64,000 bases of DNA from Cryomorpha ignava (GTDB lineage: Bacteria; Bacteroidota; Bacteroidia; Flavobacteriales_D; Cryomorphaceae). A program made the translations under genes and the position numbers. The DNA lies in the NCBI RefSeq assembly GCF_010686655.1, contig NZ_JAAGVY010000011.1:1-64000 (forward strand), given 5' to 3'. Shown in pieces: positions 10,511 through 55,268 of the stretch (its first letter is position 1; each line of letters begins with the position of its first letter). The notes beneath the pieces are model-generated. The model made no database searches. It was not told the origin of the DNA and saw nothing but the letters and a program-made list of their open reading frames with translations.

Positions 10511-11916
10511 TGTCATTTTTAGATATTCTCTTAATAATCCTGTACTTGCCGCTTTGCCTTTTTATTGGGAAGCAGATAAAGAATAAGCATCGGAATAATC
10601 CATTGTATCAAAAATGGTTTATGAAGGGGTTGTGGGCGAAACTGCTTGGTGGGCTTGCCTTTGCGCTTGTATATACCTTCTATTATGAATACGGAGGCGA
10701 TACTCGGTCTTATTTTCGGGATAGTGGGAAACTGGTTGAGGCATTATTTATAAGTCCAGCTATATATTGGGACGTAATGCAACATAGTTTTGAGAATATT
10801 AGTGCCGAAGCGCTGGATGTATTAAGGCGAATGTTATTTCACGATCCCCGGGAATATTATGTAGTGAATTTTGTTTCTATTTTTAATTTCCTTGGCTTTG
10901 GTAGTTATTTCTCAATGACGTTATTAGTAGCACTTTTTACTTACTGGGGAGTTTGGCATTTCTTTTTGTTGTTGGTAGAAAAATTTCCAAAGATTGAAAA
11001 GCAAATGGCATTTGCCGTGTTGTTTATTCCTTCAGTGTTTTTTTGGGGTTCGGGAATTAGCAAAGATTCCTTAATCTTATGTGCAGTGGGATTAATATTA
11101 TATCATGTAAATCAGATTGCATCGGGAAAGTTTTGGCAGTTTGGGTCATTACTCATCATTGGGGGCGCATCTTATTTTATGTTTGTGGTTAAAGCTTATG
11201 TTTTGATCTCTTTATTGCCTGCAATTATTTTGTGGAGAACGCTGCACTTAAGGGATAAAATTAAAAACAGTTATATACGCGCTGCGATTCTGCCCTTGGT
11301 AGGGGCAGTTTCTATTTTTGCAATGGTTTACACTCTTAATTTTATGGCACAGTATAATAAAACGTATTCTATGGACAGTTTTGTAGATACCGCCCAGAGT
11401 ATGCAAGGGTGGCATTATGTTGAAGGAGAAAACTCTGGAGATAATCACGGTCGCGGATCAAGTTATACGCTAGGGGCGTACGACGAAAATTCCTGGCAAG
11501 GTATGCTAAAGATATTTCCGGCTGCAGTAAACGTTACCTTTTTCAGACCATATATTTGGGAAGTAAAGAATGCAGGTATGTTAGCGCAAGCTTTTGAAAG
11601 TCTCGTTTTTCTCTTATTTACACTCTTTGCGGTATTAAAAACCGGGCCTATAAAGGTTTACCGTTATATAAGTAATGATTCTTTCTTGTTGATGTGTGTA
11701 GTATTTGCGATTTTCTTTGGATTCGCAGTAGGATTTTCCTCTTATAATTTTGGTGCCTTATCGAGATATAAGATTCCAGCTGTGCCGTTTTTTATTGCTG
11801 CTTTATTTATTATCCGACACAAAGCTCGTGAAGCGAAAATGGTTGGATATGTCAAGGCTCGTCAAAAAAGAGAATTTCGGGAAGGAAGCCAAGCTGTACC
11901 TGGTTTTGCGAGATGA
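10510..11916 (+). CDS. Polytopic membrane protein with GGDTRSYF motif
   Basis: This 468-residue protein has about ten predicted membrane helices, starting with LDILLIILYLPLCLFIG (residues 4-20). After helix 2 it has YEYGGDTRSYF, matching the GDTRSY of the gene before it. A large outer loop around residues 280-340 is rich in Gly, Asn and Ser (GWHYVEGENSGDNHGRGSS). Relatives sit in polysaccharide loci of Bacteroidota; a function is not known to me. A heptad array begins inside its stop codon and fills the spacer to the next gene. Confidence 0.6.
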
Positions 11917-11977
11917 GTAGTGCGTATTTAGTATGGAGTAGTGAGTATAGAGTAGTTAGTATAGAGTAGTGAGTTGT
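11915..11977. repeat. Heptad repeat array (gagtagt/gagtata) filling an intergenic spacer
   Basis: Nine consecutive 7-bp words run from within the stop codon of the membrane-protein gene to 6 bp before the GTG start of the next gene: gagtagt, gcgtatt, tagtatg, gagtagt, gagtata, gagtagt, tagtata, gagtagt, gagttgt. The same word family appears in reverse orientation inside the next gene (12566-12600). Confidence 0.85.
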
Positions 11978-29731: not shown

Positions 29732-31432
29732 AGGATGCGGAGTTGATGATAGTGACGATGAATTTACTGACGCTACGTTACACGCACTCACTCTGGTCGA
29801 CAGGATGTTCCATGCGATGCATTGAGTGGTTATTGAGCCTGTCGAAATGCTTGTCGAAATGTGCTGATGGAGAATTTGATGTGAAGCGTAAAAACGGTCG
29901 TACCTACGGCACTTTGATAAATACCGTTATTTGTAGTCCTTGGGCTAAAGCCCAAGGCTACAATAACTTCCGTCCCTACGGGACTGATACGTGGATAGGT
30001 TTTGTGTAGGGGGTGTTAGGTGTTTTGCGATTTTTCTCATTAAAGGCTTTTCTAAATGAAATCTCTACAATTTACAAAGTTAAATAACGATGCAGTGCTG
30101 TAGGCACGATCGTTATTGTAGCCACGGGTTTTAACCCGTGGATAAATAACGCACAATTCTCCACAGTGCTGTAGGCACGACAGTTATTACCCATTTCATC
30201 AGGCCCAACGTCCAAATGAACCCGCGTTCATTGCAATGATTCAAATAAATACTTCGGATCAAAATCAATATCATGCTCTGTCAATAAGCGTAAAACGGTC
30301 GTACCTACGGCACTTTGATAAATACCGTTATATGTAGTCCTTGGGCTAGAGCCCAAGGCTACAATAACTTCCGTCCCTACGGGACTGATACGTGGATAGG
30401 TTTTGTGCAGAAGGTGTTAGGCGTTTTGTGATAGTTGTCCATCATTCGTTTTCTAAATGAAATCTCTACAATTTACTAAGTTAAATAACGATGCAGTGCT
30501 GTAGGCACGATCGTTATTGTAGCCACGGGTTTTAACCCGTGGATAAATAAAGCACAATTCTCCAAAGTGCTGTAGGCACGACAGTTATTACCCATTTCAT
30601 CAGGCTCAACGCCCAAATGAACCCGCGTTCATTGCAATGATTCAAATAAATACTTCGGATCAAAATCAATATTTTGCTCTGTCAATAAGCGTAAAAACGG
30701 TCGTACCTGCGGCACTTTGATAAATACCGTTATATGTAGTCCTTGGGCTAAAGCCCAAGGCTACAATAACTTCCGTCCCTACGGGACTGATACGTGAATA
30801 GGTTTTGTGCAGAAGGTGTTAGGTGTTTTGCGATAGTTGTCCATCATTCGTTTTCTAAATGAAATCTCTACAATTTACTAAGTTAAATAACGATGCAGTG
30901 CTGTAGGCACGATCGTTATTGTAGCCACGGGCTTTAGCCCGTGGTTTAATGACGCACAATTCTCCGAAGTGCTGTAGGCACGACAGTTATTACCCATTTC
31001 ATCAGGCACAACGTCCAAATGAACCCGCGTTCATTGCAATGATTCAAATAAATACTTCGGATCAAAATCAATATCATGCTCTGTCAATAAGCGTAAAAAC
31101 GGTCGTACCTACGGCACTTTGATAAATACCGTTATATGTAGTCCTTGGGCTAAAGCCCAAGGCTACAATAACTTCCGTCCCTACGGGACTGATACGTGGA
31201 TAGGTTTTGTGTAGGGGGTGTTAGGCGTTTTGTGATAGTTGTCCATCATTCGTTCTCTAAATGAAATCTCTACAATTTACTAAGTTAAATAACGATGCAG
31301 TGCTGTAGGCACGATCGTTATTGTAGCCACGGGCTTTAGCCCGTGGATAAATGACACACAATTCTCCGAAGTGCTGTAGGCACGACAGTTATTACCCGTT
31401 TCATCAGGCACAACGCCCAAAAGAAGCCGCGT

Positions 31433-31894
31433 TCATTGCAATGATTCAAATAAATATTTCGGATCAAAATCAATATTTTGCTCTGTCAATAAGCGTAAAA
31501 ACTCATCGGGAAACGATTCCGTTCTATGATGCGCTTCCTGATTTTCGATGTATTTGTAAATCATATCCAATTCTCTGTATGACTGGGAGAAAGCCCCGTA
31601 GCCGGTTTGCCATCTGAATGGAGTGTCAAACATCTCCAGCTTATTAAAATCTTTGGATGAATTCCCTTTTATCTTTTGAAGGATTTCGGAGGTTGAGAAT
31701 TTGGGTGGAATACTGAATAAACAATGAACATGGTCTTCAACCCCATTTACGATAAGGCTATCGCAGCCGGTGTCTTTTACTTGTTGGGCTATTATCGCGA
31801 AAGCGGTTGGTTTGATTTCGGGACTGAAAGTGGATTTTCTGTATTTCACAGCAAATATTGCGTGGACGTATTGTTTGGAGAATGCATTGGCCAT
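31433..31894 (-). CDS. IS200-like / REP-associated tyrosine transposase (RAYT, Y1 family)
   Basis: This 153-residue HUH single-strand transposase is intact. The metal-binding HUH is H55-V-H57 in EDHVHCLFSIPP. The catalytic tyrosine is Y115 in KYIENQEAHH, with Q119 nearby. QTGYGAFSQSYRELD precedes them as in TnpA of IS200/IS605 and RAYTs. It cuts and rejoins one DNA strand at hairpin-tagged sites. It is the only complete copy; its last 20 or so codons are repeated at the end of most array units. No tnpB accessory gene is present, which fits a RAYT or a domesticated copy. Confidence 0.9.
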   Translation of the reverse strand: MANAFSKQYVHAIFAVKYRKSTFSPEIKPTAFAIIAQQVKDTGCDSLIVNGVEDHVHCLFSIPPKFSTSEILQKIKGNSSKDFNKLEMFDTPFRWQTGYGAFSQSYRELDMIYKYIENQEAHHRTESFPDEFLRLLTEQNIDFDPKYLFESLQ

Positions 31895-32467
31895 TTTGTT
31901 AAGGGTTTTGATTGATATCCAAAAATACGGTTTTTATTTTTTGTTGGGTATTTGATGAAATGATGATGTGATGATGAGATGATGTTTGAAGGGTGGACGA
32001 AACGGGGTAAAAACGGTCGTACCTGCGGCACTTTGATAAATACCGTTATATGTAGTCCTTGGGCTAAAGCCCAAGGCTACAATAACTGCCGTCCCTACGG
32101 GACTGATACGTGGATAGAGTTTGTGTAGAAGGTGTTAGGCGTTTTGTGATAGTTGTCCATCATTCGTTTTCTAAATGAAATCTTTAGAATTTATTAAGGC
32201 TAAATAACGATGCAGTGCTGTAGGCACGATCGTTATTGTAGCCACGGGTTTTAACCCGTGGATAAATAAAGCACAATTCTCCGAAGTGCTGTAGGCACGA
32301 CAGTTATTACCCATTTCATCAGGCTCAACGTCCAAATGAACCCGCGTTCATTGCAATGATTCAAATAAATATTTCGGATCAAAATCAACATTTTGCTCTG
32401 TCAATAAGCGTAAAAACGGTCGTACCTACGGCACTTTAATAAAAGCTGTTATTTGTAGTCCTTGGGC

Positions 32468-32527
32468 TAAACTAAGCGCAGCGTCCTCACGACCAACGGG
32501 AGCCCGAAGGGTGAACGAAGTGAATAA
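32468..32527. repeat. Enlarged hairpin loop (56-bp insertion), array unit 6
   Basis: The 4-nt loop TAAA of the CCTTGGGC/GCCCAAGG hairpin is replaced by a 60-nt loop that starts taaactaagcgcag and ends gaagtgaataa. The same insert, at the same place, is found in the next unit (32926-32985), so these two units share a common origin or were converted. Confidence 0.85.
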
Positions 32528-32925
32528 GCCCAAGGCTACAATAACTGCCGTCCCTACGGGACTGATACGTGGATAGGTTTTGTGTAGGGGGTGTTAGGTG
32601 TTTTGCGATATTTCTCCTTCGAGCGTTTTCTGAATGAAATCTCTACAATTTACTAAGTTAAATAACGATGCAGTGCTGTAGGCACGATCGTTATTGTAGC
32701 CACGGGCTTTAGCCCGTGGATAAATAAAGCACAATTCTCCACAGTGCTGTAGGCACGACAGTTATTACCCATTTCATAAGGCACAACGCCCAAAAGAAGC
32801 CGCGTTCATTGCAATGATTCAAATAAATACTTCGGATCAAAATCAATATTTTGCTCTGTCAATAAGCGTAAAAACGGTCGTACCTACGGCACTTTGATAA
32901 ATACCGTTATATGTGGTCCTTGGGT

Positions 32926-32985
32926 TAAACTAAGCGCAGCGTCCTCACGACCAACGGGAGCCCGAAGGGTGAACGAAGTGAATAA
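32926..32985. repeat. Enlarged hairpin loop (56-bp insertion), array unit 7
   Basis: This is the same insert as at 32468-32527. Here the stem base pair next to the loop is T-A (GGGT...ACCC) instead of C-G (GGGC...GCCC), a paired change that keeps the stem. The leading tetranucleotide is GTGG instead of GTAG in this unit. Confidence 0.85.
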
Positions 32986-33290
32986 ACCCAAGGCTACAAT
33001 AACTCCCGTCCCTACGGGACTGATACGTGGATAGAGTTTGTGCAGAAGGTGTTAGGCGTTTTGTGATAGTTGTCCATCATTCGTTTTCTAAATGAAATCT
33101 TTAGAATTTATTAAGGCTAAATAACGATGCAGTGCTGTAGGCACGATCGTTATTGTAGCCACGGGCTTTAGCCCGTGGATAAATAAAGCACAATTCTCCG
33201 AAGTGCTGTAGGCACGACAGTTATTACCCATTTCATCAGGCACAACGTCACTTCAAGAGCCTCAATGACCACATTCGAGAGCCTCAATGA

Positions 33291-42001: not shown

Positions 42002-42100
42002 AGCTTTAAGCCGTAAGCCGTAAGCCGTAAGCTGTAAGAGGGTCTTGCTGTAAGAGGTCACGAGTCTCGAGTCCCGAGTCGCGAGTCGAGAGTCTCGAGA
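42002..42100. repeat. Two heptad arrays (agccgta type and cgagtct type)
   Basis: At 42002-42036 are agcttta, agccgta three times, agctgta. At 42061-42095 are cgagtct, cgagtcc, cgagtcg, cgagtcg, agagtct. This pairing of the two word families is also seen in the spacers at 29638, 43750 and 53224. Confidence 0.8.
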
Positions 42101-44206: not shown

Positions 44207-44378
44207 AGCCTTAAGCCTCAAGCCGCAAGCTTTAAGTCCTTCGACCAAGCTAAAAGCATGGCTGCAAGAGGCCGTTTCTTGGCCTTAAGCCTCAAGCTTT
44301 AAGTCATGCAGCTTGCAGCTTGCAGCTTGCAGCTAGAAGCTTACAGCTAGAAGCTTGCAGCTAGAAGCTTACAGCGAG
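44206..44378. repeat. Heptad arrays ending at the acyltransferase stop codon
   Basis: A five-word array (tagcctt, aagcctc, aagccgc, aagcttt, aagtcct) lies at 44206-44240. From 44281 to 44378 there are 14 uninterrupted 7-bp words, including cagcttg three times and an alternation of cagctag with aagctta or aagcttg. The array stops 2 bp before the stop codon of the minus-strand acyltransferase gene. Confidence 0.88.
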
Positions 44379-53223: not shown

Positions 53224-53279
53224 TGAGTCTCGAGTCTCTAGTCTCTAGTCGCTAGTCTCAAGTCTCAAGTCTCGAGTCG
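53224..53279. repeat. Heptad array right after the T9SS gene stop
   Basis: Eight uninterrupted 7-bp words start 4 bp after the stop codon: tgagtct, cgagtct, ctagtct, ctagtcg, ctagtct, caagtct, caagtct, cgagtcg. A second short array (ggcttta, agccgta, agctgca, agctcca) lies at 53335-53362. Confidence 0.85.
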
Positions 53280-54748: not shown

Positions 54749-54953
54749 CAGCCATGTTCGGATTGTTTGGAGGAAAGATTTGATGGAGTTAGCAATGAAT
54801 CGGTGTTAACGGCTTGTTAGTCAGAGTTTAATCGGTTATTTCGTTGGTTTGGGATTTGTGAATTCTTAGGGAATCGATGAATGATGTGGGGAAAAAGTGT
54901 TGAGATTCTTCCTGATGTGTGGAAATTTTCAGCAGGTGTTTCTTTTTACAATA

Positions 54954-55115
54954 GGCAATTTGCAATTTGCAATTGGCAATTGGCAATTAGCAATTGGCAA
55001 TGGGTAATTAGCGATTACTTGCTGTGCTGCATTTCGACTGCGCTCAATAACCACGTGAGGTCGCTTCGTAGTTGGCAATTAGCAATGGGCAATTTGCAAT
55101 TAGCAGTAGGCAATT
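54954..55115. repeat. Heptad array (ggcaatt) split by an interspersed motif
   Basis: Nine uninterrupted 7-bp words run from 54954 to 55016 (ggcaatt, tgcaatt twice, ggcaatt twice, agcaatt, ggcaatg, ggtaatt, agcgatt). After about 57 bp six more follow from 55074 (ggcaatt, agcaatg, ggcaatt, tgcaatt, agcagta, ggcaatt). The gap holds the TTTCGACTGCGCTCAATA motif, as if inserted into the array. Confidence 0.85.
55016..55070. repeat. Interspersed motif inside a heptad array
   Basis: This is nearly the same as 1601-1655: attacttgct, tgcatttcgactgcgctcaa and accacgtga are shared. At both places the flanks contain ggcaatt-like words, so motif and heptads may travel together. Confidence 0.7.
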
Positions 55116-55170
55116 TATACACAATCAACAACTGTCATAATTCATTTTGAAAACATGAAATACAATTCGT

Positions 55171-55268
55171 AATACACAATTCACATTTCAAAATTCACAA
55201 TTCAAAATTCACAATTCACAATTCAAAATTCACAATTCACAATTCACAATTCAAAATTCACAACGCAA
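55171..55268. repeat. Heptad array (aattcac/aattcaa) upstream of the ribosomal promoter
   Basis: Fourteen uninterrupted 7-bp words run from 55171, mostly aattcac and aattcaa. The array ends 8 bp before a TATATTTG box at 55277-55284, which has no matching TTG and is at best a weak promoter, and 78 bp before the good promoter at 55346. Confidence 0.88.

Follow-up and report, generated by a model that had tools for sequence, protein, structure and literature searches.

Y1 transposase genes flanked by palindromes are known from REPtrons, in which a RAYT gene is associated with GTAG REPs, BIMEs, and REPINs; the palindromes are multicopy and dispersed, and they occur in inverted pairs and in tandem clusters that include flanking DNA (PMC3733652, PMC3116915). 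Indeed, large REP clusters reiterated in tandem together with flanking DNA have been reported (Di Nocera, 2013; PMC3733652), and the same work described TIRtrons, whose Y1 (TIRYT) gene lies between moderately repeated inverted repeats, some of which are partly self-complementary. Most TIRYTs were subsequently placed in subclass 2.1, with GGGGWSAS repeats (Quentin et al., 2018). TnpA_Y1 subclass 1.2, in that classification, comprises low-copy proteins of Bacteroidetes with the motifs DH[IV]H, WQ, and Y---Q--HH, a length of ~150 aa, and a C-terminal extension; it was scored "no" for REPs and generally lacks IS200-type terminal structures (PMC6006769). A separate family, Acido-Lenti-1 (RF01687), which takes its name from Acidobacteriota and Lentisphaeria, was rated a probable RNA (Weinberg, 2010; PMC2864571) and is filed by Rfam as an sRNA; according to a 2026 paper (PMC13298647), which still invokes it as a possible regulator, little is known of its function. 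A link between RF01687 and the subclass 1.2 transposase was not found in the literature searched. Here we describe a locus of Cryomorpha ignava where both occur together, and consider it probable (~0.72) that the locus is a tandem array of a hairpin-ended subclass 1.2 element and its deletion derivatives, shaped by duplication and recombination, with hairpins that are REP-like mobile DNA of the RF01687 class.

The window analyzed was a 64,000-nt stretch of a C. ignava contig (NZ_JAAGVY010000011.1, positions 1 to 64,000). Tandem Repeats Finder detected, at 29884-31502, a repeat with a period of 402 (score 2879; 4.0 copies with 95% matches) and, at 32067-33247, a further block with a period of 458, the longer period arising because U6 and U7 (see below) each hold a 56-bp insert. 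Alignment resolved seven units of ~402 bp, all on the plus strand, between 29884 and 33249, with four units to the left and three to the right of one gene. U1 (29884-30285) has at its left edge the fused, post-deletion junction AAGCGTAAAAAC and is followed by U2 (30286-30686), U3 (30687-31088), which served as the reference unit, and U4 (31089-31490), whose right end coincides with the intact gene's own 3' tail. On the other side of the gene, U5 (32005-32405) begins with GGGTAAAAAC, the undisturbed and unfused 5' flank of the gene; U6 (32406-32863) has a hairpin B whose loop holds the 56-bp insert; and U7 (32864-33249) contains the same loop insert and ends before the gene tail. A preliminary description of this DNA had reported seven ~402-bp tandem units surrounding a single intact HUH transposase gene, and both methods bore this out; the array that it placed at 29882-33245 is real, with a right end that extends to ~33249.

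The genome is available as a draft assembly in 149 contigs, which makes the copy number of the array provisional, and one might attribute this number to misassembly. We regard such an artefact as highly improbable, given that the units differ from one another at 51 gapless columns (90-97% identity) and hold distinguishing inserts, and that the contig continues well beyond the array on both sides.

Each unit is built from the flanks and the tail of the transposase gene, as had been proposed. Reading along the plus strand, U3 consists of GTAAAAACGGTC; a small hairpin A (GTACCTGCGGCAC; 30703-30715), the innermost of the left cluster; a large hairpin B (30736-30764) with GTAG...CTAC ends; a small hairpin C (30775-30787) with a CTAC loop; a spacer of ~100 bases; a small hairpin C' (30898-30910) with a TGTAG loop; a large hairpin B' (30921-30944) with a GTAG foot and the sequence CCACGGGC-TTTA-GCCCGTGG; a small hairpin C'' (30969-30981); and ~100 bases that adjoin C'' and hold the ~22 final codons of the gene on the opposite strand. 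Hairpin A was identified from the sequence and the fold of its cluster, the others by DNA folding. Cluster C'-B'-C'' is an inverted copy of cluster A-B-C (~72%), and when folded as single-stranded DNA each of the two is much more stable than its shuffled versions (z -4.1 to -5.2; 0/200). The intact gene sits between these clusters, such that the full element reads C'B'C''-gene-ABC. The last ~22 codons of the gene are present in six of the seven units, U4 being counted through the gene itself, in agreement with the earlier statement that most units carry the last ~20 codons; the five such units outside the gene retain 21-22 codons at 90-100% identity, and U7 has no tail. Coding selection on these tails was considered and rejected, as the few differences between copies (e.g., EQN/EHD) alter amino acids.

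GTAG and CTAC together occur 56 times in the 3364 bp of the array (16.6/kb vs. 6.2/kb across the window). The abundance of these motifs noted in the preliminary description is genuine, but many of the occurrences are the loops of small hairpins rather than tags at a hairpin foot. GTAG as a constant tag of every hairpin was likewise rejected: at the paralogue with 63% identity, the foot of the large hairpin is TTAG and the small-hairpin loops are CAGAG. Stem changes are paired in B', which reads either GGGTTTTAACCC or GGGCTTTAGCCC, and the B stem of U7 is altered on both sides of its insert; these changes fit hairpins that have been maintained. The inserts themselves (32470-32525 in U6 and 32928-32983 in U7) are of identical type, with related copies elsewhere in the genome at C20, C21, C19, C28, and C11:77.7 kb, and the loops of hairpins at C4:104.5 kb and C23:28.0 kb hold shorter inserts of similar appearance. 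These may represent a second small repeat family that targets hairpin loops.

The intact gene (31433-31894, minus strand) encodes a Y1 HUH transposase of 153 aa (Pfam Y1_Tnp, 6.5e-26). Its motifs are DHVH, RWQ, and YIENQEAHH, with H55, H57, Y115, Q119, H122, and H123 invariant in 12 relatives, and its nearest solved structures by sequence are IS200/IS605-type transposases. The protein passed the IS200/IS605 model NCBIfam NF033573 (75 bits; cutoff 55) and failed the RAYT model NF047646 (22.6 bits; cutoff 80). Likewise, the YI--NP type of Y motif that defines class 2 TnpA_REP, i.e., RAYTs (PMC6006769), is absent, and the DH[IV]H, WQ, and Y---Q--HH motifs and the length are those of subclass 1.2, with which the protein also has in common a C-terminal extension, a low copy number, and a host among the Bacteroidetes. 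By its motifs, then, the protein belongs to TnpA_Y1 subclass 1.2, and by the curated model it is not a RAYT. The earlier view of a RAYT gene with its hairpins holds insofar as a Y1 HUH gene lies beside cognate hairpins, and fails as to the RAYT assignment.

A RAYT-like trait is present nonetheless: palindromes, with a GTAG foot in B', lie on either side of the gene, and their relatives are dispersed through the genome, as the preliminary description had suggested searching for. Clusters paired without a gene (C'B'C''-70..110 nt-ABC) occur at three loci (C32:38748, C4:104439, and C23:27997), where the 70-110 bases between the clusters are non-gene sequence. REPINs are short, dispersed elements of two inverted palindromes, and these three pairs have that form, as do -/+ pairs of RF01687 in other genomes. 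Further near-identical copies of the gene, as would be seen with an IS200/IS605 insertion sequence, were not found in the genome; the nearest paralogue (63%, C32:8809) lies between two single clusters and is reversed relative to them. The locus is a system of the REP/REPtron kind, in a variant built on the IS200 side of the family. It differs from REPtrons with RAYTs in failing the RAYT model, in its double-hairpin repeat with a variable foot, and in units that hold a gene tail; from TIRtrons, which it resembles in having a Y1 gene between inverted repeats, it would differ in subclass and repeat sequence, judging by the published descriptions.

Hairpins B and C match the RF01687 covariance model above the gathering threshold (37) in five units, at 39.0-44.0 bits. 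In U3, the match covers 30741-30788 on the plus strand (43.2 bits), and a second, similar match at 30897-30944 on the minus strand, spanning C'/B', falls below gathering (33.3 bits). To date RF01687 has been treated as an RNA, whereas here it behaves as DNA at the ends of an element. We found it (E<=1e-3) in 61 of 296 sampled genomes of Bacteroidota and in 44 of 195 genomes of a Verrucomicrobiota sample, and two Planctomycetota genomes and one Desulfococcaceae genome each contain at least 95-149 copies. The genome of Desulfococcaceae bacterium HSG8 has at least 149, which are scattered across numerous contigs; inverted pairs with a distance of ~90 bp are frequent among them. Among the matches listed, 16 of 113 in Bacteroidota (15 other genomes) lay within 1 kb of a Y1_Tnp gene vs. 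0.21 expected, and 23 of 129 in Verrucomicrobiota (14 genomes; 21 without the seed genome) vs. 0.19 expected. This amounts to an enrichment of ~75-120x over chance in the two phyla. The expected values are those for uniformly placed copies, and copies within a cluster are not independent; the matches correspond to eight Y1 loci in seven genomes of Bacteroidota and nine in seven of Verrucomicrobiota. Subclass 1.2 motifs were present in 20 of the 21 RF01687-adjacent Y1 genes, although sampled non-adjacent genes are mostly of subclass 1.2 too, and the motif test thus does not show that other classes are excluded.

RF01687 is not the universal hairpin of the subclass, a possibility rejected on finding above-gathering matches beside the gene in only five of 40 relatives (one from Verrucomicrobiota and four from Planctomycetota). 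Since the other 35 loci checked gave no match at the Rfam threshold, RF01687 is one of several hairpin families of subclass 1.2. The foot varies across RF01687 loci (ATAG, GTAG, ACAG, TTAA, and others), in a scan that also catches chance hairpins. A tight, 66-bp tandem array of RF01687 was observed in a further genome (G060 C30:19085-19394), ~220-500 bp from a subclass 1.2 gene.

It could be argued that the element carries RF01687 as a true small or regulatory RNA and that the array was amplified for the sake of its transcript. The Rfam filing and the 2010 rating speak for such a role, as do the compensatory stem changes between units; however, DNA hairpins recognized by a Y1 enzyme explain stem pairing equally well, and the arrangement of the copies is that of DNA elements. 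Around genes, the copies on the two sides are inverted relative to each other, directed inward at some loci and outward at others, and at high copy number they form inverted pairs: among those listed matches in high-copy genomes that have close neighbors, 13 of 20 pairs were -/+ and none was +/-. RF01687 copies behave as REP/REPIN DNA rather than as a transcript, and we consider a regulatory RNA a poor candidate. RF01687 is best read as the REP-like, mobile-DNA hairpins of the subclass 1.2 transposase in the phyla sampled.

Flanking repeats are not confined to C. ignava. Using a comparison set of 80 relatives retrieved by a pattern typical of subclass 1.2, we found inverted repeats linking the 300-bp 5' and 3' flanks at 37 of 73 testable loci; for the outer segments of these loci the figure was one of 59, and for mismatched flanks 16 of 217. 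Direct repeats of at least 40 bp were present in 46 of 136 inner flanks vs. eight of 136 outer flanks, and direct repeats lay beside the gene in 35 of 78 related loci. Subclass 1.2 genes thus often have repeat partners and tandem arrays, in contrast to the published description. The absence of REPs and terminal structures is a published generality rather than a sequence criterion for the subclass, and it appears to need revision. These frequencies, along with the published tandem REP clusters, also indicate that tandem arrays of such hairpins are not unusual, whereas the preliminary description had called a regular tandem amplification of flank plus gene tail unusual. An array at the orthologous site was not found in genomes of the same family, whose genes are only 30-39% identical.

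Capture of gene pieces is recurrent but rare (two of ~97 loci), as expected if internal deletions keep the DNA that adjoins the end clusters. In Roseimaritima sediminicola (Planctomycetota), tandem units of ~400 bp with RF01687 hairpins lie downstream of the gene and contain copies of 17 of its last ~18 residues at 70-76% identity. At a locus of Salinimicrobium nanhaiense, the first 23 codons and upstream DNA are duplicated just upstream (78% identity), a mirror of tail capture. At the sensitivity used, the remaining ~95 loci yielded no convincing fragment of the gene.

The origin of the unit can be read from its junction. The gene tail joins the 5' flank at the 8-bp repeat GTAAAAAC, exact copies of which lie 512 bp apart, within the gene (31495-31502) and in its 5' flank, where the hairpin cluster has its inner end (32007-32014). 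The gene interior reads AAGCGTAAAAACTCATC, the flank GGGGTAAAAACGGTCG, and the unit junction ...AAGCGTAAAAACGGTCG; judged from these sequences, a 512-bp deletion between the two repeats explains the unit. Of the two repeats, the right-hand one belongs to the cluster end: several dispersed clusters of the genome have this motif, or a near-identical one, at their inner ends. The fused junction is already present at the left outer edge of U1, and the unfused flank is kept in U5. All units have one spacer in common, indicating that blocks were duplicated whole; independent, side-by-side insertion of the units was rejected on this ground. Furthermore, U6 and U7 share the 56-bp loop insert, yet the spacer of U7 resembles that of U5 and the spacer of U6 that of U1, and 105 of 300 pairs of informative sites failed the four-gamete test. 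The simplest reading is that units have recombined or undergone conversion with one another, and recurrent mutation can contribute to the pattern. The array is not recent because its units are 3-10% diverged.

In the scheme that we favor, five tandem elements would be internal-deletion derivatives that kept both clusters and the last ~22 codons and lost the first ~85% of the gene, and one element retained the gene whole. The array would have been made, and later shuffled, by duplication through unequal recombination or through slippage of replication at the hairpin-rich repeats, the elements having one shared spacer between them. We infer that this amplification was passive, as short-repeat deletion, slippage, and unequal exchange would suffice for an array without the enzyme, which may still have contributed. 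The array itself is real and consists of non-autonomous elements derived from the gene next to them. On the model of IS608 and of TnpA_REP from E. coli (PMC6006769), the transposase would be expected to recognize the hairpins as single strands, e.g., on the lagging-strand template, and to cut and rejoin nearby, and short paired-cluster elements would be mobilized in trans. Recognition and cleavage of these hairpins by this particular protein would follow from the same analogy.

The transposase could instead have built the array itself, by excising single strands, forming circles, and joining them again at GTTTTTAC sites, with units added successively. At the inner end of the hairpin cluster, the junction GTTTTTAC|GC would be a plausible cleavage position by comparison with IS608, in which the cleavage-site analogue is TTAC. 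The tail-carrying units in a second phylum, which apparently arose independently, and the concentration of direct repeats beside these genes also favor a role for the enzyme. The same junction, however, falls within an exact 8-bp direct repeat, which is sufficient for slippage, the units share a spacer and are mosaic, and several tandem runs of RF01687 occur on contigs without a listed Y1 gene (G304 C103, C55). We consider transposase-driven amplification unlikely. The preliminary description had invoked rolling amplification or repeated single-strand joining at one site, whereas the identical spacers, the junction homology, the divergence, and the mosaicism fit a single deletion and, after it, duplication and recombination of the ordinary kind. 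A narrower proposal is that tail retention is no accident of deletion, the single-strand joining activity of the enzyme at a TTTTTAC-type site having made and amplified derivatives separately in Bacteroidota and Planctomycetota; this we find more doubtful still.

A passively amplified array of deletion derivatives would be a readable record of non-autonomous hairpin elements arising from an autonomous one, by short-repeat deletion and then duplication. The connection of RF01687 with subclass 1.2 also joins two orphans, a family listed since 2010 as a probable sRNA without an assigned function and a transposase subclass described as having no known repeats (PMC6006769). If RF01687 hairpins are the DNA ends of subclass 1.2 elements, many genomes would need to be re-annotated, and there would be a second REP-like system, one that derives from the IS200 side of the family.

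Other repeats were observed in the same genome. Two further Y1 genes lie within tandem arrays of unrelated hairpins. At C9:9026-12469, a gene with 32% identity is found inside kilobases of another tandem hairpin family, GACCCTGTAAGGCGTCGTATGTTTGTAG, many copies of which have a common insert of ~24 bases; at C3:33072-36527, the Y1 gene has an internal TAA, and tandem units holding CGTCACCGTTCGGGATAAAATATGGGATGAT lie upstream. The window also contains arrays of seven-base units (GAGTCTC, TGCAGCT, CAATTGG, ACAATTC, and others) at 11914-11974, 42057-42099, 44307-44375, 53225-53279, 54945-55016, and 55162-55263.
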